The notes under the pieces are model-generated. The model was not told the DNA's origin and did not search any database. It saw only the letters and a program-made list of their open reading frames with translations. The position numbers and the translations under genes were made by a program. 64,000 nt of DNA from Synechococcus sp. AG-683-C23. GTDB lineage: Bacteria; Cyanobacteriota; Cyanobacteriia; PCC-6307; Cyanobiaceae. The stretch is from contig QCVD01000007.1 of NCBI GenBank assembly GCA_003208835.1, positions 1 through 64,000 on the forward strand, read 5' to 3'. The first letter of the stretch is position 1, and the number at the start of each line of letters is the position of its first letter. Positions 3,516 through 13,603 of the stretch are shown piece by piece.

Positions 3516-4483
3516 CGCTGCAGCTTCAGGTGCGTCCCTTCAGCTTTTCGCTTCTGCAACCGTTGCGGACCGCCACTGGTGTGTTGTTAGAGCGGCGCGG
3601 TTGGCTGTTGCGGTTGCGCGATGGCGATTCCGGCGCCCTGGGTTGGGGGGAGGTGGCGCCGTTGCGATTCGAGCAGTGGTCACGTTGCCAAACCTTATTG
3701 GAGGATCTACCTCAAGAGGTGAGCCGTGATCAGCTTGAGGCGTTGATCAATCAGGGGCCGAGGGCCTTTGGCTTTGGCTTGGGTGCAGCGTTGGCCGAGC
3801 TTGATGGTCTTGTTGGCGTTCACGCCTCCCAGCCGTGGCAAACAGCGCCTCCTTCGGCCCAGCTGCTGCCGGCGGGGGAGAGGATGTTGTTGGCCCTTGA
3901 CCAAGTGTTGGAGCAGGCCCCTGTCAAGCAGGTGCTCACACTGAAGTGGAAGGTGGCGACTGAACCCGACGAGCTGGAGCGGTGTTGGTTTGAGCAGCTC
4001 ATGCGGAAGCTGCCCACCACTGCAAAGCTGAGGTTGGATGCCAATGGAGGCTGGGATCGGGCAACGGCGAGGTCTTGGATGGATGCCTTCGCAAACGATC
4101 CGCGATTGGACTGGTTGGAACAACCCTTAGCGATCGATGATCGCGCAGGTTTGGAGCAGTTGGCTGAGATCGGTCCAGTCGCCCTGGATGAGTCCCTCGA
4201 GCATCAACCAATGCTGCGGGAGCAATGGTTGGGCTGGCAGGTTCGTCGTCCAACAGTGGATGGGGATCCGCGGCCTTTGTTGCGGGCTTTGCAGGATGGG
4301 ATGGCTCATCGAATGGTGAGCACAGCCTTTGAAACGGGGATCGGACATCGCTGGCTGCAACATTTGGCGGCGTTGCAATGGGTTGGTCCAACACCTGCTG
4401 CTCCGGGATTGGCACCCGGCTGGTGTCCTGCGGGGGCTTTGTTCTCTAACGACCCTGCAATGGTTTGGCAGGCGGTGAGCTGA
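3512..4483 (+). CDS. menC: o-Succinylbenzoate synthase
   Basis: Enolase-superfamily enzyme of 323 residues that dehydrates SHCHC to o-succinylbenzoate. The ATG at 3512 overlaps the menA stop and begins MTLQLQVRPF; longer reading upstream would be antisense or out of frame with menA. Visible motifs are the catalytic LTLKWKV (KxK) around residue 145-151, LRLDANGGWD around 170-180 (metal ligand Asp), DWLEQPL (metal ligand Glu) and ALDESL. The last three bases overlap the menE start. It belongs to the menA-menC-menE operon. Confidence 0.93.
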   Translation: MTLQLQVRPFSFSLLQPLRTATGVLLERRGWLLRLRDGDSGALGWGEVAPLRFEQWSRCQTLLEDLPQEVSRDQLEALINQGPRAFGFGLGAALAELDGLVGVHASQPWQTAPPSAQLLPAGERMLLALDQVLEQAPVKQVLTLKWKVATEPDELERCWFEQLMRKLPTTAKLRLDANGGWDRATARSWMDAFANDPRLDWLEQPLAIDDRAGLEQLAEIGPVALDESLEHQPMLREQWLGWQVRRPTVDGDPRPLLRALQDGMAHRMVSTAFETGIGHRWLQHLAALQWVGPTPAAPGLAPGWCPAGALFSNDPAMVWQAVS

Positions 4484-5712
4484 TGGTTGTGCAGGTCCTG
4501 CTTTGCTGCCGCGGCGCTCCTCAGTTGGCGACAGAGGCTCTTGAGGGTCACTTTGCTGCCAACCGATGGGTGCAGTTGGTTCCACAGTCGGGAGGATCGG
4601 TGCCCAAGTTGCCGGATCTTGAGATGCCACCGGGGCCAGGGGTGGTGGTGGCCAGTGGGGGCAGCAGTGGTCAGCTACGGCTGTGTTTGCAACCCCGGCA
4701 GCATTTGCAGCGTTCTGCGGAGACAACGGCGAAGTGGTTGACCGAGCTCGGAATTTTTCCTGAGCAGAGTGTGGTTTTTAACCCTTTGCCGTTCCATCAC
4801 GTCAGTGGTCTGATGCCCTGGTGGCGGAGCCGCCAGTGGGGGGCGACTCATGTGTGGATAAGCCCGGAGCGGATGAAACAACCTGCCGACCTCTTGCATT
4901 TCTCTGAACATCAGCCGGGATGGCACGAGAAAGCTGCCTTGTTGTCGTTGGTTCCCACGCAGCTGGCTCGTTTGATTGAGCATCACGCGGGCTGCTCTTG
5001 GTTGCAGCAGTTTTCGGTGATTTGGGTGGGAGGTGCTGCTTTGTCTGATGAGCTGGCCCACCGAGCGAGGTCTTTGGGGCTTCGGTTATCGCCTTGTTAT
5101 GGAGCCACTGAAACCACCGCGATGGTGACTGCAATGGCTCCAGAAGCGTTTCTCGCTGGTGAAAATGGATGTGGATCTCCCCTGAAGGACGTGGAATTGA
5201 GGCAAAACGCCGATGGAGCACTTCAGGTTCGAACGTCGCGTTTGGCGGTTGGTTGTTGGTCTGCCGATCAACCCAATCATTTGATTCCGCTCACCGATGC
5301 GGCTGGTTGGTGGACATCTGGTGATTCAGCTTTCTTTGAGCCAGATCAGTCAGGCACGCGTCTAGTAATTCAGGGACGTCTTGATGGTGCTGTGCTCTCG
5401 GGTGGGGAAGTGGTGTTCCCACAACGGCTTGAGCAGCGCCTCTGGCGGGCTGCTCAAAGCCATGGATTGCCCTTGCGCGCTGTGCTGATTGTTGGCATCC
5501 CTGATCCTGTTTGGGGCCAGCAATTAGTTGCGCTGGTGCGTGCCAGTGAACCAAAAGAGTTGGGAGAGCTCTTAGCAGTGCTTACCAAGTTCAGCGTGGA
5601 TTGGAGCGCAGCTGAACAGCCGAAGCGCTGGTTGGGTTGCGATGACCTCGATCTCAGTGCAGCTGGGAAGTGGGATCGAAACTATTGGTGTTCATGGGCC
5701 ACCAAAATGTGA
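4483..5712 (+). CDS. menE: o-Succinylbenzoate-CoA ligase
   Basis: Adenylate-forming enzyme of 409 residues that activates o-succinylbenzoate to its CoA ester. The start is the ATG at 4483, sharing one base with the menC stop. The phosphate-binding loop is divergent, SGGSSGQLRL instead of the common SGTTGxPK. The remaining signatures are clear: LPFHHVSGL, CYGATETTAMV (motif A5-like), TSGDSA, QGRLDGAVLSGGEVVFP, and a late LSAAGKWDR with the candidate catalytic lysine. It is shorter than many acyl-CoA synthetases, as usual for MenE. The next gene downstream, the giant repeat protein, starts 76 bases later and is unrelated to quinone synthesis. Confidence 0.88.
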   Translation: MVVQVLLCCRGAPQLATEALEGHFAANRWVQLVPQSGGSVPKLPDLEMPPGPGVVVASGGSSGQLRLCLQPRQHLQRSAETTAKWLTELGIFPEQSVVFNPLPFHHVSGLMPWWRSRQWGATHVWISPERMKQPADLLHFSEHQPGWHEKAALLSLVPTQLARLIEHHAGCSWLQQFSVIWVGGAALSDELAHRARSLGLRLSPCYGATETTAMVTAMAPEAFLAGENGCGSPLKDVELRQNADGALQVRTSRLAVGCWSADQPNHLIPLTDAAGWWTSGDSAFFEPDQSGTRLVIQGRLDGAVLSGGEVVFPQRLEQRLWRAAQSHGLPLRAVLIVGIPDPVWGQQLVALVRASEPKELGELLAVLTKFSVDWSAAEQPKRWLGCDDLDLSAAGKWDRNYWCSWATKM

Positions 5713-5788
5713 GAATTACTCCAAGTGTCGGGAAAAACACGTAACGGTATGAAAAATGACATAGTCTTACTAAATAATTGGTGGTGCT

Positions 5789-8700
5789 ATGGCATTCCTT
5801 GTATCAGATATTGCTGAAGATGAACTGTCTTGGTCTGTCAGCTCCCCGAAATCTAATAGATCTGATCTTCTTCAACTAAGTGATTTAGATACTGCCGGTG
5901 ATCTCGCTTATATAGAGGAAAATGGAAGAGCATATGTTTGGGATGCAAATGCAAGTGCTTTGGTTTTAATCAAAGAAAAATGGACAGACGATATTTCAAG
6001 CAATCCAAATGACCAAGGTGCATTTCGAGGTTGGGAAGATTGGGGTTACGGCTCGAGAAAGCTCAGGGCTGTTGAGGCGAATGATAATGGTTGGGTGATT
6101 GCCCTTGAGCATAATTGGGACGGCCAGAGTGACTGGGAAGTTTTATATCTTGATTCCACTGGATATATTGATTGGGATAATCATTACTGGGGAGACATCA
6201 AAGGTCAGGAGTACTTATTTGAGGTCTCAGGATCCGCGTTAAGTGGTGATTTAAATCAAGATGGTGTGATCGGTGTCAATACAAGCAGTTTCACCACGAG
6301 TTCAGTCGATTCGGATGGTGCCAACATCCTTGCTGACTCTGATGGCTATGCCTACATAAAAACTGGGGCCAGCGCAGATGCAAATGTTGTTGCCATTACT
6401 GATCATGGCAACAACGTTAGATTTAATCAGTCGTGGAGTGATGGAAGCTGGAGTAATACTGAAATTGCGACACATGCGCAAGTAGACACCAGTGGATCTG
6501 TAGCTGTTTATAAGATTCTTGTTAAGCAAACATCAACAAGTGGCTCGGCAACGGAAACTCAATATCATGTCCATACCGTGAATGCAGATGGCTCTTTTGA
6601 ATGGAATACGGATTGGAATGTCGATCTTGTCTCTTATGAGACTGCTTTTAATGCAGACTTAGATGGTGATAATGTAAAAGGATTCAATGCTTCGAATCTT
6701 AGTCTTGTAACAAGCGATGATGATGCTTCGGATACACCAGCTTCAGGTGCTGTGTTTCTGAAGAAAAACGCAGCGACTGGCTCTATTTATATTTTCGATA
6801 ATAATATTAGTGCTCCAGGCAATACGATCAAGATTGATGATAATTATTTAGAGCAATATGAAACATTTGCTGATGAGGGTAGTTATGAAAGCACTGTTGT
6901 GGCATCCCATAAAAATTCTTTCGAGTTAGATGGTGATAGCCCGTCTTCTTATCACTATCTAATTGCCATTAAAGGAACAGATACTTATCAAGGAACAGAG
7001 TCCGTTGCGTGGGATATTGTTCCTGTTGAGTCGAATGGTGAAGTCCGTTGGGACTATTCGAGTTTTACAGAATCAATTGCAGGGTATGAAGATCTATTTG
7101 GTCAAGATTTGGATGCTAGCGGCAGTAAGGGGATAAACACTGGGGCACTTACTGCGGTCTCGACGGATGAGTCGGACGATAATGTTGTTCTTTCCACATC
7201 AAGTTCTGGTGCAATATTTATTACAGACAATGGTGGTACACCTCTGGCATTGAAGGATATGTTCGGTGGAATTCCTGCAGTATCGATCAAGGAATCGTGG
7301 AGTGATGGAAGTTTTGAGGTGAAACCATTCGCATCAGTTAAGAAGGATATAAGTGGAACAGATTATTATTATTCTGTTTTCAAAGACATAGAGATTAATT
7401 CTGGTGCTGATGGTATTTTGGGTAATAGCGATGATGTTGAGAATGTTGGTTATACAATAATGAGAGCGACTACCGCTGGCGTAATCGATTTCGAGAATAT
7501 CATTGAAACTAAGTCAATTACATCCTATGAGGGTTCTTCGTGGTTTGCTCAGGATATTAATGGTGATGGAAGTCAAACTGGAACTATTGCAGTTTCTGCA
7601 AAGCCCGCGGTTGGTGGAATTCAAGACACTGCAGGCACAGAGACTTTAGGGAAAGACAGTGAAGGTGCCATTTACATTGTTGATTCAAACTTAACTAGTG
7701 ATGGAGAGAATGTTCGTATTAATGAAAGTTGGATTGAAGAATCCCATAAATGGAATGAAGGTTCCCATAGCTCTTCCGCTCTTGCGGTAAGAGAAGTGAA
7801 TAACGCAGCTGATTCAAATGGATATTATCAGATTGCAGTCAAGAACTCAAATACCTGGACAGATTGGCAGACTGGTGCAACTAAAACTGATGAAGGTTGG
7901 CAGCTCTATGCCTTTGATCTAAATGGAAGCGAGGGAAGCTTTGAGTTAGCTATTAATTGGGATAAAACAATTTGGACTCAATCCATTTCTAATTATGAAT
8001 CAGATTTTGGTATTGATCTCGATGGCTCAGGTGGCACGGGCGATATACCGGGTTTAGCGCTTGCCTCTACAGATACTGATGGTGCCCGTTTGAAAAAAGA
8101 TTTACAGAATGTTCTTTATATTGTAGATGACGAAAATGATAATTCCCCGTTGATGATTGCTGATGCCTATGGCGGCTCGATTACCTTTGATTATCAGAGT
8201 AACTGGGGCTCAGGATCTCATAGCTCCTCTGCTACAGCAATCGATTCGAATACGGACAACAGCTTCTCTTTGTTGGTAAAACATTCGAATACCGAAGGCA
8301 CTCAATCGTTTAGTGATTATGAGATTTTGCAGGTAAGTTCTGGAGGAATCATTGATTGGAGCGAAACCGTTTGGACTTCAGATATTGCACCTTATGAAAC
8401 CCAGTTTAATCAAGATTTTGATGGCGATGGATCTATAGGTCTTAACATCGGTAGTTTCTTTGCGGTAACTCCTACAGCTGGATTTGGTGGTGCTGATTTG
8501 AGTGGAGTTGTGTTAAAAGCCAATTCTAATAATTTATCTAATGAGTCTACATTTTATATAACATCCTCTGGCGGTGCCGTAATTCCCCTCAATGAAGAGT
8601 GGGGAGACAGTGCTCGCCTAAATCAAAATTATTCTTGGTCTGAAGGTAGCTTTGCATCTGTACCAACCGCAATCATAGGTGGCCAATCTTATACAAATAC

Positions 8701-11700
8701 TAGTGGAGAAAATATTACTGGTGGTTATGCTATAGCTTTAAAAAATACCGATATTTTTAATTCTGCTACCAATATCAGTTGGGAGATTGTTTATGCCAAC
8801 TCGAAGGGAATTATCGATGGCGAGCGTGTCTTTACGAATTCAATTGTTAATTATGAGAATACCTTCAGCATTGATTTCAACGCAGATGGCTCTAAGGGGC
8901 TAAATAGTTCAGGTATCACCAGCAGTGCAATCTCTACAGATACGGCTGGAGATTTACTTTATAAATATGATGGTGCTTTGTATTTTAAAGATAACGAAGA
9001 CAATAGTCTTCATCAGATTATAGACCAATGGGGAGGTACTCCATCATTCAATTGGTCTGATAGCGGTGGCTCCGGTGACACCGCCTGGTCATATGCACAA
9101 GCGGCCTATGCAGTTGAGTCCTTTGTAGACGGTTCCACTAAAAAATTCTTACTTGCAATTAAAAATACTGATTCTTGGGGCGGGGGGTCTGCAGAAACAT
9201 CATGGGAAACATTTGAAATCAAGTTAAATGCTTCCACGTCTAAATGGGAGCTTGATTGGGACACGGGGAGTTACTCCAAGGGAATCGCACGAAAGGAAAC
9301 GGTTTTTGGTCAGGATATGAATGGTTCAGGAGGGGCCGCTGAGTCAGCTAGTTCGATTGCCACAACGCTTGTCGCAACTGATGTATCGAGGGCTGGTGGA
9401 TTAACTGGTGTTTCTTTAACAAAAGACTCAGAAGGTTCGTTTTATATCAAAAAACAAGATGGTTCGGATCTCGCCATTGTAGATGACGGAGGAATGAGTG
9501 TTTCCCTCGACTGGAAGGATTCCTTCGGCAATGAAATTATTAGTGCCGAGGCATTTGCAGTTGAGGGAGTGTTGAAAGCCAATAGCACCCTTGATTATTA
9601 TAAAGTAGCGATTAAACATTCAACACAAAATAGTGATACATCAGAGACTGATGTGCAATGGGAGACTTTCGAAATTAGTTCTGCTGGCATTATTGATTGG
9701 TCTTCGACCACTTTTGGAGATGCCAAACGCCATGAATCTGCACTCAATCAAGACTTAGACGGAGATAAAGCTATCTGGTCTCCAGGTTCTCTTACGTTCA
9801 CATCGGCTGGTTCTGATATAACTAATGCCCGTGCATATTTAGATGCAGACATGAATATTTATATTCAGCCTGCGAATAGTAGAGCAAAAAATGCTGTTCT
9901 TGATTTTGGAGGCTTGGTTAGTTTTAATCGTACCGAAGCTCTGCCGAATGGTTCAGGCAACAGGGTCGAGTCGATTGAAGGAGTTGAACTTGTCAATGAT
10001 AAATATCAGCTTTTGATCAAAGAAGTTGAGACATCTAGCTCTGATGTCTCAACTCACTATTCTACGTTGAATGTTGATAAGTCAAGCTTCGAAGTTGATT
10101 GGGGGTCTTTTACTTGGTATGAAAATCCTGCTTCTCTGGAGACTATATTTAATTTAGGGAATCTCGACGGTGTTTCAGGTGTTGCTGAAATTAATACATC
10201 CTCGGCAGCATATGTTTTAACGGATACTACTGGAGCTAAATTAAAAAGCACTTCAGATGGAAGTTTGTTTATTGAAGATGGCTCTGATATTAATGCGATT
10301 ACGGGCCCTAATGGTGGTTATATTAATTTTGACTTTACTGATACTTGGACTGGGGGCTCGTTTAAATCTGAGGCGTTAGCAGTCCAAAAAGTTGGAACTG
10401 ATTTCAAGTTAGCCGTTAAAGAAACACTGGCTGATGGCGGCAATACGGATATTTCTTACCAGATATTTACTCTAAAAGACACTACTACAGCAGCTCTTGG
10501 CAATAATAATAATCAAATTGACCATGTTTTGAATTGGGGTGATTCTCAGTTTGTTGTTGCTGCAGATTTGAATGAATCAGAATTCGGCCAGGATCTAACT
10601 GAAGATGGTCAAATTTCAAATGCATCTTCATCTGCGGCCTTCGCTAAGGATGTTGCAAATAAGGCGACCGATGGTGAGGCTTTGACATTAATTGGGCAAC
10701 AGGCACAGTCTGATGTTAAAGCGATTAGTAATCCAAAGGCTGGAGCAACAGATACGCAGATTGAAATGTTTACCGGAGGAGTAGAAGGAACTGCTAAGGG
10801 AAATTATGACCTTGATGTCAAAATTGTCCAGCAAGCCAGTGATGCATTACTCGCCAAGGTTGCTTCAGACTCGGCTGTATCTGGCGGAGCTTCGTCATTA
10901 GAGCCACTCACGGGAGTGATGGATTTTTCTGTCACAATTAACAATGCAGATAATTACGGGAAAGTTGTATCAATGTCTTGGATATTGCCAGAAGGTACTA
11001 CGAATCCTGTTTATATGAAAAAAGACCAGGCATCGGGCGAGTATTTCGACTTCAAGTTTAATGAGAAAACAAAGCAAGGTTATAAATGGGATGCAGCTTC
11101 GCGAACATTGAAGGTTTATGTTAAGGATAATGGTCGATACGATAGTGATACAACTCTTGGCAAGGTTCGTGACCCTGGCTTGATTGCAGAGCTTGCTTCC
11201 CCATCTCCCTCACCAAGTCCTTCACCAAGTCCTTCACCAAGTCCTTCACCAAGTCCTTCACCAAGTCCCTCGCCAGAGCCACTAGCACCGATATCTAAAA
11301 AATCAATAGTGCCCGATGAACTGCCAGCAGATGTATCCGTTTTAAGAGCTGATGATATTTCGATCCTTACTCCTGAGACTCTCAGCGCGCTGACTGATGA
11401 TCAGGTAAAGAATTTGCCACCATCTGCAATGAAGGGTTTCACTGCAGATCAGGTGTCGGAGTTGTCCGATGAAGCTGTGGCCGCTTTCAGTCCGAAGCAG
11501 ATTAAAAAATTGTCAGCCGAGGCTGTATCTGGCCTCTCGAAATCTCAGATGTCTGATTTGTCTCCGAAAGCAGTCAAAGGCTTTACCTCTGATCAGGTGG
11601 AGCAATTGTCGAAAAACACCTTCAAGGTTCTGGATACGGATCAATTGGCGAAGCTCAGCAAGGATGCGGTGACGGGCCTGACCAGAGGACAACTCAAAAC

Positions 11701-11998
11701 ATTGACCGGTTTGGAAATTTCTTCTTTCAAACCCGGCAAGCTCAAATCAATCGATCCTGATTCAATATCTGGCTTGAAACCGAATACCTTGGACGATTTC
11801 ACGAGGCGTCAGGTTCGATCCCTTTCCAATGATCAGTTGGAAGGCCTTTCGCAACGACAAGTCAAGAAAGCTGATGACTTCATCGATGCACTGTCAGATA
11901 AGCAAGCAAGCTTCCTCTCTTCTTTAAAGGGTTCTTCTAACTCTTCGTTTGAGTATGAGGAGTTTAAGCTCACCCCTGTCGTTGATCCGCTTGCATAA
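5789..11998 (+). CDS. Giant Trp-rich repeat protein, probable surface or secreted protein
   Basis: A 2069-residue protein with no recognisable enzyme motif. Residues about 1-1610 hold eleven units of the same plan: a TDxxGxxL..DxxGxxYI strand pair, a Trp motif such as SWSDGS or SWSEGSF, an AIKxT strand, GxIDW, YExxF and an acidic loop such as NQDFDGDGSIG. The loops start near residues 154, 290, 440, 589, 743, 876, 1029, 1176, 1322, about 1457 (degenerate) and 1602. This resembles the Trp-rich W_rich_C repeat family of cyanobacteria (from memory, not searched). Residues about 1705-1800 look like a choice-of-anchor U domain (YMKKDQASGEYFDF, ending DPGLIAE). Then come (Ser-Pro)13 and 22 copies of an 8-residue repeat at residues 1853-2028. 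There is no classical signal peptide and no terminal membrane helix, so non-classical or type I export is my guess. The gene is visibly AT-richer than its neighbours and separates menE from menI. Function unknown; adhesion or a cell-surface layer is plausible. Confidence 0.8.
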   Translation: MAFLVSDIAEDELSWSVSSPKSNRSDLLQLSDLDTAGDLAYIEENGRAYVWDANASALVLIKEKWTDDISSNPNDQGAFRGWEDWGYGSRKLRAVEANDNGWVIALEHNWDGQSDWEVLYLDSTGYIDWDNHYWGDIKGQEYLFEVSGSALSGDLNQDGVIGVNTSSFTTSSVDSDGANILADSDGYAYIKTGASADANVVAITDHGNNVRFNQSWSDGSWSNTEIATHAQVDTSGSVAVYKILVKQTSTSGSATETQYHVHTVNADGSFEWNTDWNVDLVSYETAFNADLDGDNVKGFNASNLSLVTSDDDASDTPASGAVFLKKNAATGSIYIFDNNISAPGNTIKIDDNYLEQYETFADEGSYESTVVASHKNSFELDGDSPSSYHYLIAIKGTDTYQGTESVAWDIVPVESNGEVRWDYSSFTESIAGYEDLFGQDLDASGSKGINTGALTAVSTDESDDNVVLSTSSSGAIFITDNGGTPLALKDMFGGIPAVSIKESWSDGSFEVKPFASVKKDISGTDYYYSVFKDIEINSGADGILGNSDDVENVGYTIMRATTAGVIDFENIIETKSITSYEGSSWFAQDINGDGSQTGTIAVSAKPAVGGIQDTAGTETLGKDSEGAIYIVDSNLTSDGENVRINESWIEESHKWNEGSHSSSALAVREVNNAADSNGYYQIAVKNSNTWTDWQTGATKTDEGWQLYAFDLNGSEGSFELAINWDKTIWTQSISNYESDFGIDLDGSGGTGDIPGLALASTDTDGARLKKDLQNVLYIVDDENDNSPLMIADAYGGSITFDYQSNWGSGSHSSSATAIDSNTDNSFSLLVKHSNTEGTQSFSDYEILQVSSGGIIDWSETVWTSDIAPYETQFNQDFDGDGSIGLNIGSFFAVTPTAGFGGADLSGVVLKANSNNLSNESTFYITSSGGAVIPLNEEWGDSARLNQNYSWSEGSFASVPTAIIGGQSYTNTSGENITGGYAIALKNTDIFNSATNISWEIVYANSKGIIDGERVFTNSIVNYENTFSIDFNADGSKGLNSSGITSSAISTDTAGDLLYKYDGALYFKDNEDNSLHQIIDQWGGTPSFNWSDSGGSGDTAWSYAQAAYAVESFVDGSTKKFLLAIKNTDSWGGGSAETSWETFEIKLNASTSKWELDWDTGSYSKGIARKETVFGQDMNGSGGAAESASSIATTLVATDVSRAGGLTGVSLTKDSEGSFYIKKQDGSDLAIVDDGGMSVSLDWKDSFGNEIISAEAFAVEGVLKANSTLDYYKVAIKHSTQNSDTSETDVQWETFEISSAGIIDWSSTTFGDAKRHESALNQDLDGDKAIWSPGSLTFTSAGSDITNARAYLDADMNIYIQPANSRAKNAVLDFGGLVSFNRTEALPNGSGNRVESIEGVELVNDKYQLLIKEVETSSSDVSTHYSTLNVDKSSFEVDWGSFTWYENPASLETIFNLGNLDGVSGVAEINTSSAAYVLTDTTGAKLKSTSDGSLFIEDGSDINAITGPNGGYINFDFTDTWTGGSFKSEALAVQKVGTDFKLAVKETLADGGNTDISYQIFTLKDTTTAALGNNNNQIDHVLNWGDSQFVVAADLNESEFGQDLTEDGQISNASSSAAFAKDVANKATDGEALTLIGQQAQSDVKAISNPKAGATDTQIEMFTGGVEGTAKGNYDLDVKIVQQASDALLAKVASDSAVSGGASSLEPLTGVMDFSVTINNADNYGKVVSMSWILPEGTTNPVYMKKDQASGEYFDFKFNEKTKQGYKWDAASRTLKVYVKDNGRYDSDTTLGKVRDPGLIAELASPSPSPSPSPSPSPSPSPSPSPSPSPEPLAPISKKSIVPDELPADVSVLRADDISILTPETLSALTDDQVKNLPPSAMKGFTADQVSELSDEAVAAFSPKQIKKLSAEAVSGLSKSQMSDLSPKAVKGFTSDQVEQLSKNTFKVLDTDQLAKLSKDAVTGLTRGQLKTLTGLEISSFKPGKLKSIDPDSISGLKPNTLDDFTRRQVRSLSNDQLEGLSQRQVKKADDFIDALSDKQASFLSSLKGSSNSSFEYEEFKLTPVVDPLA
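11210..11269 (+). repeat. 12-base tandem repeat encoding a Ser-Pro linker
   Basis: Five head-to-tail copies of TCACCAAGTCCT, the last with one changed base, lie inside the giant gene. Each copy encodes Ser-Pro-Ser-Pro. With flanking codons they form 13 consecutive Ser-Pro pairs from residue 1804. Because the unit is a multiple of three, gain or loss of copies changes linker length without shifting frame. The near identity of the copies suggests recent slippage. Confidence 0.95.
11345..11872 (+). repeat. 22 copies of an 8-residue repeat in the giant protein
   Basis: The stretch encodes 176 residues that divide exactly into 22 octads with hydrophobic residues at positions 5 and 8, for example TADQVSEL, SPKQIKKL, SPKAVKGF and TSDQVEQL. 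Two flavours, one with Gln-Val and one with Ala-Val at positions 4-5, alternate in part, giving a 16-residue super-period in places. The copies have diverged at the DNA level, so this is an old protein repeat, unlike the adjacent 12-base repeat. Regular spacing of this kind suggests a solenoid or short helical hairpins. Confidence 0.9.
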
Positions 11999-12022
11999 TT
12001 GATGTGCTGATTCGGCTCTAAT

Positions 12023-12062
12023 AAATAATCAGTAATGGCGAAATCCTTTTCTGATTATTTTT
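12023..12062. terminator. Bidirectional intrinsic terminator between giant gene and menI
   Basis: A perfect 10-base inverted repeat, AAATAATCAG at 12023-12032 and CTGATTATTT at 12051-12060, encloses an 18-base loop and runs into TT on the plus strand. It lies 24 bases after the giant gene's stop and 17 bases from the stop of the convergent menI, so it can serve both. The stem is AT-rich, hence moderate confidence. Confidence 0.6.
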
Positions 12063-12078
12063 CTCCCCCTTCCATTTA

Positions 12079-12528
12079 TTAGAGCGGTTGGATTTGGCCC
12101 AGGTTTGAGGCTTCGATCCAGCGGTCGATTGGTTCAGGTGTAAGGCATCGTCGACGGCTGCCGGCATCGATAGCCACATGCCTGAGGCAGCCGCTTGCAA
12201 TTTCTTGTTCACTTAGGCGGAAGCTACTCATCACTTCGAAGCAGCTTGGGTCGATCCGTTTGGGTTGCAGCTCAATAACGATGGCATCACCCACATGCAT
12301 TGGGGCCCGGAAGTCCGCATGGCAATGCACGATCGGCAGGGCCACGCTGGGCTGATCGGAGCGTCCACCGGGAAAGACCACACCGACTGGAATCCCGAAC
12401 TGTTCAAGGCTCTGTTCCCATGCCTGATGGCACCAGCCCAGGAGATTTTGAAAGTGCATCACCCCGGCGGCATCGGTGTCGCTGAAGCGCACTGTTCGGT
12501 GGATCTCCAGCCATGGGTGGGCGTTCAT
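12079..12528 (-). CDS. menI: 1,4-dihydroxy-2-naphthoyl-CoA thioesterase
   Basis: Hotdog-fold thioesterase of 149 residues. It hydrolyses DHNA-CoA to DHNA, the substrate of MenA, in phylloquinone synthesis. The start is the ATG at 12528 (MNAHPWLEIHRTVRF). The diagnostic 4-hydroxybenzoyl-CoA-thioesterase-type motif is RFSDTDAAGVMHFQNLLGW around residue 12-30, with the catalytic Asp in DTDAAG. Its assignment to DHNA-CoA rests on similarity to the cyanobacterial Slr0204 type and on the men genes nearby. It is convergent with the giant gene, which separates it from menE. Confidence 0.88.
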   Translation of the reverse strand: MNAHPWLEIHRTVRFSDTDAAGVMHFQNLLGWCHQAWEQSLEQFGIPVGVVFPGGRSDQPSVALPIVHCHADFRAPMHVGDAIVIELQPKRIDPSCFEVMSSFRLSEQEIASGCLRHVAIDAGSRRRCLTPEPIDRWIEASNLGQIQPL

Positions 12529-12588
12529 TGCGATGCGTTGTCGATGCTGTGAGGGACTGCCACCCTGACACCGAATCTGCCCAGACCC

Positions 12589-13266
12589 ATGGCTGCATCC
12601 ATCGCCTTTGAACAGCCTTCGATTCAGAAGGCTTGGGATGCCTTCCAAAAACACATCCCCGTGCTTTTGGTGATTTGAGTGGGCAGCATCGCTTTGGCCT
12701 TTTTGGGTCTCGCCGTTTCGTTGCTGATCGTGATGGTGGTGGGCAGCTTGGGTGGTTCCAGTGATTCAGCGTTTTCCCTTGGCGGAATTTTGGCTCAACT
12801 CACGCAGATCCCCTTTTCAATTCTCTCCAGCTTGCTCAGTGTGCTGATGGTGGCAATCCCAGCGGTGTATTACGAACGCGTTGAAGTGGTCTCTATCGGT
12901 GCTGCGGTTGAGTTGTTGCAAGAACGGTTCTGGCGTTACGTGCTGGCCGGTTTGTTTTTCTCCATCGTGATGACGATCGGCCTGCTGCTTTGTGTTCTTC
13001 CTGGCTTGGCTGTGGCCCTCGTAACACCGGTGTTTGTGAATCGGATTTTTGTCACCGAGATGAGCATCGGCGAGGCGTTTTCCCAAGCGTTCCAGGTGGT
13101 GTATCGCTCAGAGAACGGCATGAGTTTTGTTGGGCTTGAAGTGCTTGCGGCCATCGTCGTGGCGGTGTTGGCTGTGATCACCTGTGGTCTTGCTGGGCTT
13201 GTGGTGATTCCGATGGCCAGCTTTTACCTTCAAAACACGGCCTATCAGCGTGGGCTGTTGCGCTGA
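12589..13266 (+). pseudogene. Membrane protein gene interrupted by an in-frame TGA
   Basis: An ATG at 12589 opens a frame starting MAASIAFEQPS, with QKAWDAFQKHIPVLLVI just before a TGA at 12676-12678. The same frame resumes at once with GTG at 12679 and runs 195 more residues to a stop at 13264-13266. The part after the stop has four or five hydrophobic segments. The split N-terminus matches the start of the membrane protein at 15846-16652 (xxxWxAFxxxPxxxxxF), so the two halves were one protein of about 225 residues. The TGA could be a Trp (TGG) codon mutated by one base, a sequencing error, or a stop tolerated by reinitiation at the GTG. Function unknown. Confidence 0.7.
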
Positions 13267-13267
13267 T

Positions 13268-13603
13268 TTAGGCGCTGGAGGGCCAAGCGTTGAGGCTGAG
13301 GCGAAGTAGCCAGTAGGCCAGCATCGCCCCAGTGCTGAGGGCGATGGTTGGTCTGGCTGCTGCCCCCTGAATCACACCTCGGGGTACCAGCCGCCGTTGG
13401 CGAATCGAAACGACAGACCAACCCACCAATACCGCTGCCATCACTGGGCCAAATAGATGCCAGTGCAGAGCGTTGTAGAGGTCGCCAGTCAAAGTTGCGC
13501 TGATGGCGCGAGTAAGAAAGCAGGTGGGGCAGGGGATGCCGGTGATGGCCCGCAGCGGGCAGCTAAATCCCGGTAGCTGAGGATGCAGTCCCTTCAGCCA
13601 CAA
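13268..13603 (-). CDS. DUF2752 membrane protein
   Basis: Small membrane protein with the DUF2752 signature CPLRAITGIPCPTCFLTRA, which contains three conserved cysteines and an Arg, followed by LHWHLFGP and two hydrophobic helices. The family's role is not known. The start is uncertain: the frame stays open upstream to about 13700, including a plausible extra segment FLLPTALVGTLW, but contains no ATG or GTG there. The coordinate given uses a TTG at 13603, which is probably too short. It lies between the interrupted membrane gene and ndhH, convergent with the former. Confidence 0.75.
   Translation of the reverse strand: MWLKGLHPQLPGFSCPLRAITGIPCPTCFLTRAISATLTGDLYNALHWHLFGPVMAAVLVGWSVVSIRQRRLVPRGVIQGAAARPTIALSTGAMLAYWLLRLSLNAWPSSA

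Follow-up and report, generated by a model that had tools for sequence, protein, structure and literature searches.

A giant Synechococcus gene encodes a fixed eleven-unit scaffold with a portable C-terminal cassette and was probably acquired by recombination

What kind of protein does a single giant gene of Synechococcus sp. AG-683-C23 encode, is its long repeat array fixed or free to expand, and how did the gene come to lie where it does? The gene (positions 5789–11998, + strand) is found within the window, that is, the whole stretch of DNA analysed here, which comprises the first 64,000 nucleotides of contig QCVD01000007.1. It is a single intact open reading frame (ORF) that starts with ATG and encodes 2069 residues without an internal stop, as the initial annotation of this DNA had proposed, and a pseudogene reading was rejected because the ORF is intact. 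Our preferred explanation, to which we assign a probability of roughly 55%, is that the gene was acquired by recombination and encodes a surface protein secreted by a type I route and stiffened by calcium, and that it is one allele of a family sharing a fixed scaffold of eleven units followed by a choice-of-anchor-U-like junction, a scaffold that we call W11. The gene and its parts are as follows, with the repeat units delimited in part by a hidden Markov model (HMM) of the unit.

5789–11998, + strand: whole giant gene, 2069 residues; G+C content 42.0%, compared to 58.2% in the 4-kb flanks; 32% at fourfold-degenerate sites
5846–6286, + strand: W-unit 1, by unit alignment and unit HMM
6287–6694, + strand: W-unit 2, by unit alignment and unit HMM
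6695–7144, + strand: W-unit 3, by unit alignment and unit HMM
7145–7591, + strand: W-unit 4, by unit alignment, unit HMM and unit tree
7592–8053, + strand: W-unit 5, by unit alignment, unit HMM and position comparison
8054–8452, + strand: W-unit 6, by unit HMM and tree; folded, with a mean predicted local distance difference test score (pLDDT) of 90.3; beta meander, helix and acidic loop
8453–8911, + strand: W-unit 7, by unit alignment and unit HMM
8912–9352, + strand: W-unit 8, by unit HMM and unit tree
9353–9790, + strand: W-unit 9, by unit HMM and unit tree
9791–10198, + strand: W-unit 10; acidic loop degenerate in the window protein, kept in the four relatives compared
10199–10630, + strand: W-unit 11, by unit HMM and unit tree
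10910–11188, + strand: choice-of-anchor-U-like stretch, matching NF041766 positions 9–91 of 92 under the cut-off
11206–11268, + strand: Ser-Pro linker, a 12-bp tandem repeat in 5.2 copies
11366–11869, + strand: 21 octads, PF20080 (ALTTAQ repeat), predicted alpha-superhelix
11870–11995, + strand: C-terminal tail ADDFIDxLS...DPLA, common to otherwise unrelated giant proteins

The eleven units, of 133–154 residues each as first described, can be aligned with one another at a mean pairwise identity of 25%, and with an HMM derived from them precisely eleven matches (103–155 bits) are obtained in the window protein; this count is not independent, as the model was built from the same units, whereas the equal count in relatives is. 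The units contain Trp, but the enrichment implied by their earlier description as Trp-rich is mild, at 2.8% Trp over residues 1–1640.

A search with the units matched 8 of 251 genomes of the same family, and one with units 8–11 plus the junction matched 15 of 400, while in a phylum-wide sample the latter query found 1 of 292 genomes, namely the window's own. Within the genomes sampled, W11 thus appears to be confined to one cyanobacterial family, having been found only there, and the named Synechococcus records suggest that the W11 family is picocyanobacterial. Eleven units were counted in five relatives (G263, G149, G614, G306 and G552; G numbers denote genomes throughout), unit 3 being split by an insertion in G306 and G552, and three further relatives (G009, G018 and G619) carry one extra N-terminal unit. 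A tree of 57 units drawn from five proteins gives positions 4, 6, 8, 9, 10 and 11 each a supported clade in which all five proteins are represented; window units 1–3 fall outside any such clade, and the picture for the other positions is less clear. We then compared units by position in ten proteins against a reference, G263, drawing on 11 of 15 core-matched genomes of the family: incomplete arrays from G607 (8 units) and G295 (9 units) were retained, and fragments of G598, G210, G237 and G015 were left out. Unit edges were taken from HMM matches above 10 bits in one set and above 8 bits in the other, with numbering anchored at the C-terminal unit; two HMM pieces in G009 were joined by hand into one unit, as were the halves of unit 3, lying about 315 residues apart, in G306 and G552. 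After centring, 105 of the 108 units match the same-numbered unit of G263, the other three being the extra N-terminal units; on the raw score, 102 of 108 do so, the additional failures being window units 1–3. Therefore, the units are not interchangeable, and W11 is a fixed scaffold rather than an expandable one.

This position-specific orthology bears directly on the idea that the array is an ordinary expandable stalk whose unit number drifts by duplication. Repeat proteins commonly expand in this way, and three relatives do carry an extra unit, yet no internal expansion was seen in the ten proteins compared, and we regard the stalk reading as very improbable, it being largely refuted by the unit tree and the position comparison. 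The fixed scaffold provides a common denominator for some Synechococcus giant exoproteins, one that is conserved, searchable and expressible unit by unit.

In contrast to the scaffold, the ends of W11 proteins vary. They carry an M10 metalloprotease, SWM, an S8 subtilisin and a P-domain in G009, a C11 clostripain and an Ig-like domain in G018, RTX repeats (PF00353) in G149, RTX repeats and cadherin in G263, and DUF4214 in G210. In G614, a shared end on a W11 scaffold was seen again: a common C-terminal module, EVYWKT..TAYLRALMHADGNIQYANYQ, is present in the W11 protein and in the two ORFs near it (L144:1026–1508, 3810–10631 and 10677–11864). The window allele approximates a bare scaffold with an octad cassette.

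Given these ends, W11 could instead be a family of secreted exoproteases whose scaffold normally carries proteases, with the window allele derived by loss of the enzymes. Consistent with this, the G009 protein, which lies beside menE as in the window, bears M10 and S8 domains, G018 bears the C11 domain, and G210 has a weak match to the protease SapA (38.8 of 1200 bits) over a stretch overlapping its RTX match; in addition, the published description of a WH7805 exoprotein lists peptidases, cadherins and five Trp-rich domains (PMC4949707). A Pfam scan that did not extend to G552, G607, G295, G598 and G619, however, detected no peptidase domain in G149, G263, G614 and G306, the last of which also starts at unit 1, and the window ORF is intact; we consider the exoprotease reading improbable.

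Regarding the nature of the units, the initial annotation had proposed a similarity to W_rich_C domains. At the PF07483 gathering cut-off, no match was obtained for the full protein or for eight pieces of the unit region (units 10 and 11 being scanned only within the full protein), and Pfam and NCBIfam scans of the whole protein returned neither W_rich_C nor anchor U, leaving the units without a credible match. A PF07483 search of the whole window genome was likewise negative, in a run in which the control genomes were also silent. A wider search found matches in 20 of 244 cyanobacterial genomes, and 12 of these matches, one of them (L082) under the Pfam cut-off, served as the W_rich_C alignment for a profile–profile comparison. 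Using hhalign, the eleven window units matched this alignment with 97.0% probability (E 1e-10, 101 columns), whereas none of 40 column-shuffled controls exceeded 0.77%. On the strength of this difference, the units are remote relatives of W_rich_C, although not members by cut-off, and the proposed kinship holds as remote homology. The window units resemble those of cyanobacterial W_rich_C repeat proteins in the order of conserved positions, in the E...F pattern and in the acidic loop at the end; they differ in length (133–154 residues against 105 model positions), in giving no direct HMM match and in forming a fixed set of eleven positionally distinct units.

The acidic loop, D-x-[DN]-x-[DS]-G, occurs in full in seven of the eleven units, far above chance, as 5,000 shuffled versions of that region average 0.54 and never exceed 6, and the E of the E...F end pattern is invariant in all eleven. 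The calcium-loop-like unit ends claimed earlier are thus borne out in full for these seven units; the other four lack the complete motif, and the loop of unit 10 is degenerate. In EF-hands and dockerins, a DxDxDG loop following a helix binds calcium, and by analogy the loop after the unit helix may do the same. A model of unit 6, for which the remaining ten units of the window protein supplied the alignment, showed a beta meander, a helix at 112–118 and the acidic loop (pLDDT 90.3, predicted template modelling score 0.83); one unit rather than two was folded because two-unit alignments were staggered or uneven. Foldseek found no match to this model in the PDB at E ≤ 0.001. The best rows of a VIA comparison, mostly resembling beta-propeller pieces, reached Z 5.7, too low to indicate more than a shared general arrangement, and we therefore claim no fold class for the unit. 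By sequence, the unit profile matched a designed Pizza propeller (E 1.9e-4) and ribosomal protein S11. The initial annotation would have been refuted by the lack of a match to either family it named together with the lack of a repeated fold; the window protein has no cut-off match to either family, but the predicted structure shows a confident repeated fold. Each unit would be a small beta domain that ends in a helix and an acidic loop, the loop probably binding calcium and connecting to the following unit.

The junction that follows the units resembles choice-of-anchor U. The model NF041766 matches the window protein at 22.3–22.7 bits (E 1.3e-4 to 1.8e-4), under the NCBIfam cut-off of 32 bits but over nearly its full length, and it recurs in four of four homologues tested (14.6–27.2 bits, from position 3, 4 or 9 to 90 or 91, E 5e-6 to 0.044). 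The likeness proposed earlier therefore holds as a probable remote homology. Choice-of-anchor U domains are typically followed by a recognised C-terminal sorting signal; in the window protein, the stretch is followed by the linker and then by the octad cassette.

The Ser-Pro linker was borne out, whereas the claimed 22 octads proved to be 21 full octads in register plus one partial. They pass the Pfam cut-off of PF20080, the ALTTAQ repeat (35 bits against 26.4), and the octad piece alone scores 56.6 bits in six stretches. A CAAP1 match to the same piece (38 bits, cut-off 25) was taken as a look-alike because PF20080 scores higher on it, and DUF3576, Collagen_trimer and similar weak matches were disregarded, being under cut-off. 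The octad profile matches the solved structure HeliScrew4 (PDB 9zem, E 4.7e-15), as well as leucine-rich repeats of LGR4 and TLR3 (E from 3e-6) and mesothelin (E from 6e-4). What sets the window protein apart from ALTTAQ repeats and HeliScrew4 is a fixed block of 16 octads with a conserved C-terminal tail, serving as a shared C-terminal module.

The final ~220 residues of the window protein align with the C-terminal ends of ORFs in five other genomes, together with diverse companion domains: a 1500-residue ORF in G015 (Synechococcus sp. AG-679-D13) with RCC1, SWM and Ig-like domains, cut by a contig end; two ORFs in G018 (AG-670-F04) of 447 and 412 residues with cadherin-like and SWM domains, both cut by contig ends, SWM being found in one of the two; a 1000-residue ORF in G006 with LVIVD and SWM domains, the only one of the aligned ORFs uncut by a contig end; a 690-residue ORF in G291, cut by a contig end; and a 64-residue fragment at a contig end in G011 (metagenome-assembled genome ARS1019). 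With octads numbered backwards from the tail, 16 octads compared across six proteins show 52% identity at the same position and 20% at other positions, and five of these six proteins, along with the G011 fragment, end in (D/E)PLA. Within the window gene, G+C at fourfold sites is 48.6% in the cassette and 30.9% in the units (p 4e-4), as expected of a fusion. The octads and their ...DPLA tail are thus a portable C-terminal cassette common to otherwise unrelated giant proteins. Five of 34 genomes of the genus hold it (G000, G006, G011, G015 and G018), whereas in a sample of 300 family genomes some octads occur in 20 and a match running through to the tail in only four. Pattern-based scans of viral contigs, made separately with cassette and core patterns, found no relative.

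Two further kinds of octad protein were observed. On contig C11 of the window genome, a second octad protein of 456 residues (L031:8871–10238) has a Gly/Pro-rich start and PPEAMGGF-type octads and is without a DPLA tail. Octad proteins of G005 and G006 (L030:7629–11261; L033:5723–9670 and 9815–13543), two of which adjoin in G006, share another conserved tail with an NPNQSLPL end and represent a second class of octad tail.

The octads are confidently predicted as an alpha-superhelix, with pLDDT 87–96 by blocks of ten over window residues 1855–2044. Mesothelin, an adhesion protein, ranks first among the structures matched (Foldseek E 1.2e-3, probability 1.00; VIA Z 6.2, root-mean-square deviation 5.2, 172 residues), which raises the alternative that the cassette, as in the octad-like superhelix of mesothelin, is the binding, business end of the protein and the W11 array merely presents it. 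We consider this doubtful: no octad match was obtained with Foldseek at E 0.001, the TM-scores of its top row are low (0.24 and 0.39), a Z below 13 may mean a mere common helical arrangement, and in all seven cases seen the cassette sits at the extreme C-terminus with its tail kept, which suits a sorting or anchoring role. Under our preferred explanation, the linker would join the scaffold to the superhelix with its conserved ...DPLA end, and the cassette would hold the protein at, or target it to, the cell surface. Such retention, and a protective or adhesive role, are suggested by analogy because of the companion domains of the cassette and published giant exoproteins. With a portable cassette in hand, surface retention of giant cyanobacterial proteins becomes directly testable by fusion. 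A wider conception, which we offer only tentatively and consider rather unlikely, is that W11 is a standard eleven-unit picocyanobacterial chassis, possibly a closed ring or a measured rod with position-specific roles, that takes interchangeable enzymes and C-terminal cassettes, the octad-DPLA cassette being a sorting tag recognised by a surface-display machinery yet to be discovered.

In the genomic neighbourhood of the gene, the names menE, menC, ndhH and rsmH, as well as the thioesterase type, are presumed from resemblance. The slot is bounded as follows.

4516–5712, + strand: menE-like gene, upstream edge of the slot, 51–52% identical to its counterparts in G001 and G003
12079–12528, − strand: thioesterase-like gene, downstream edge, 82–83% identical to those in G001 and G003
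12015–12085, no strand: hairpin with a T run and nested inverted repeats, terminator-like (z −2.0), between the convergent giant and thioesterase genes

The menE and thioesterase genes are separated by −6 to +499 bp in each of the 25 other genomes of the genus that have both on one contig (eight more could not be scored, and G009 counts through a second menE beside the thioesterase gene on contig C47), compared to 6.4 kb in the window. G001 and G003, the relatives whose thioesterase genes are closest to that of the window, are 91–100% identical to the window in gshB-like, menF, menA, ndhH and rsmH genes, 91–98% in the genes next upstream past menC and 85–97% in other genes downstream, while identity dips to 70–73% in menC and to the values given above at the two slot edges; homology, as read from junction alignments, resumes directly after the menE stop. 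Fourfold-site G+C is 51% in menE and 60–75% in eight other genes measured, so that the giant gene, at 32%, is a low-GC insertion between two otherwise adjacent genes. Its core is closer to those of other genera (G263, 48.5%; G149, 46.9%) than to those of the same genus (G009 and G018, 39.5–39.7%), although a tree of the five cores has no strongly supported branch. From spacing, identity dips, composition and closer kin in other genera, we therefore conclude that the whole giant gene, menE and part of menC were swapped in, probably by homologous recombination from a low-GC donor. The region 3533–5712, containing menC and menE, is far more divergent from G001 and G003 than its neighbours and was probably carried along with the giant gene. 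The slot recurs in G009, where a W11 gene directly follows a menE copy besides an uninterrupted menE–thioesterase pair on another contig, and in G011, where a cassette end lies beside the thioesterase gene at a contig end (contamination 2% and 6%, respectively). It is thus a defined site of allele exchange.

The combination of modules had been suggested to be new, which is only partly right because W-rich mosaics with protease or cadherin domains have been published for marine Synechococcus: the 1961-residue WH7805 exoprotein noted above (EAR17767.1), detected by mass spectrometry in the exoproteome (PMC4949707), and a (W_rich_C)2-(PPC)2-subtilisin protein, YP_382882.1 (PMC2605481). Like the window family, both are mosaics of Trp-rich domains and proteases, the former also with cadherins; by description, they are set apart by five and two Trp-rich domains, respectively, against eleven in W11, and the parts of the descriptions consulted mention no octads. 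A limited literature search returned nothing on a scaffold of eleven fixed units or on octads as a C-terminal cassette, and nothing for ALTTAQ or HeliScrew. The earlier reading had overlooked the fixed unit order, the portability of the cassette, the horizontal insertion and the exchange of ends. Giant genes with cadherin-like or RTX domains are described in PMC9387257, and SwmB and other giant surface proteins have been linked to motility and grazer resistance (PMC9387257, PMC4949707), with Synechococcus giant proteins said to be rarely similar among strains and thought to shield cells from threats (PMC4949707). The window protein is like SwmB-type giants in its size, repeat build, strain-specificity and, presumably, export, but Pfam detects no SWM repeat (PF13753) in it, in contrast to the cassette-sharing proteins of G015 and G006 and one of the two in G018. 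Similarly, it differs from RTX type I secreted adhesins in lacking the nonapeptide repeats (PF00353).

Export of the window protein is likely to be of type I, the most probable exit from the cell being an exporter of ATP-binding cassette (ABC) and HlyD proteins. The W11 gene of G263 is preceded by ABC and HlyD genes that end ~2.2 kb ahead of it. Contig C14 of the window genome carries a pair to which these are 45% and 40% identical, respectively, the ABC protein of the C14 pair containing a cyclic-nucleotide-binding domain as well; another HlyD gene lies ~5 kb from the W11 gene of G614. No N-terminal signal peptide was seen by eye. In seawater, the unit loops would then bind calcium and stiffen the chain, relatives carrying protease, RTX, cadherin or other modules in place of the octad cassette, and the displayed protein may act in interactions with grazers, phages or neighbours. 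Several observations weigh against this explanation. The Pfam scan of the window protein revealed neither an RTX repeat nor a recognised type I signal; the exporter pair of its genome is on a contig other than that of the giant gene; no HlyD match in that genome reaches the family cut-off of 208.65 bits, the best scoring 155 on C1 and the C14 copy 76; the full loop motif is missing from 4 of the 11 units; the anchor-U stretch lies in a low-confidence model (overall mean pLDDT 63); the G006 cassette ends in NTIP rather than DPLA; and the 77%-complete window genome holds one full cassette protein, where a general sorting tag would be expected on several; G018 has two. Finally, upstream of two W11 genes, we observed a divergently transcribed protein of 220–248 residues (L105:2502–3161 and L109:1532–2275, 35% mutual identity), which has no Pfam match at E 0.01; it may form an outer-membrane barrel and is a candidate partner.

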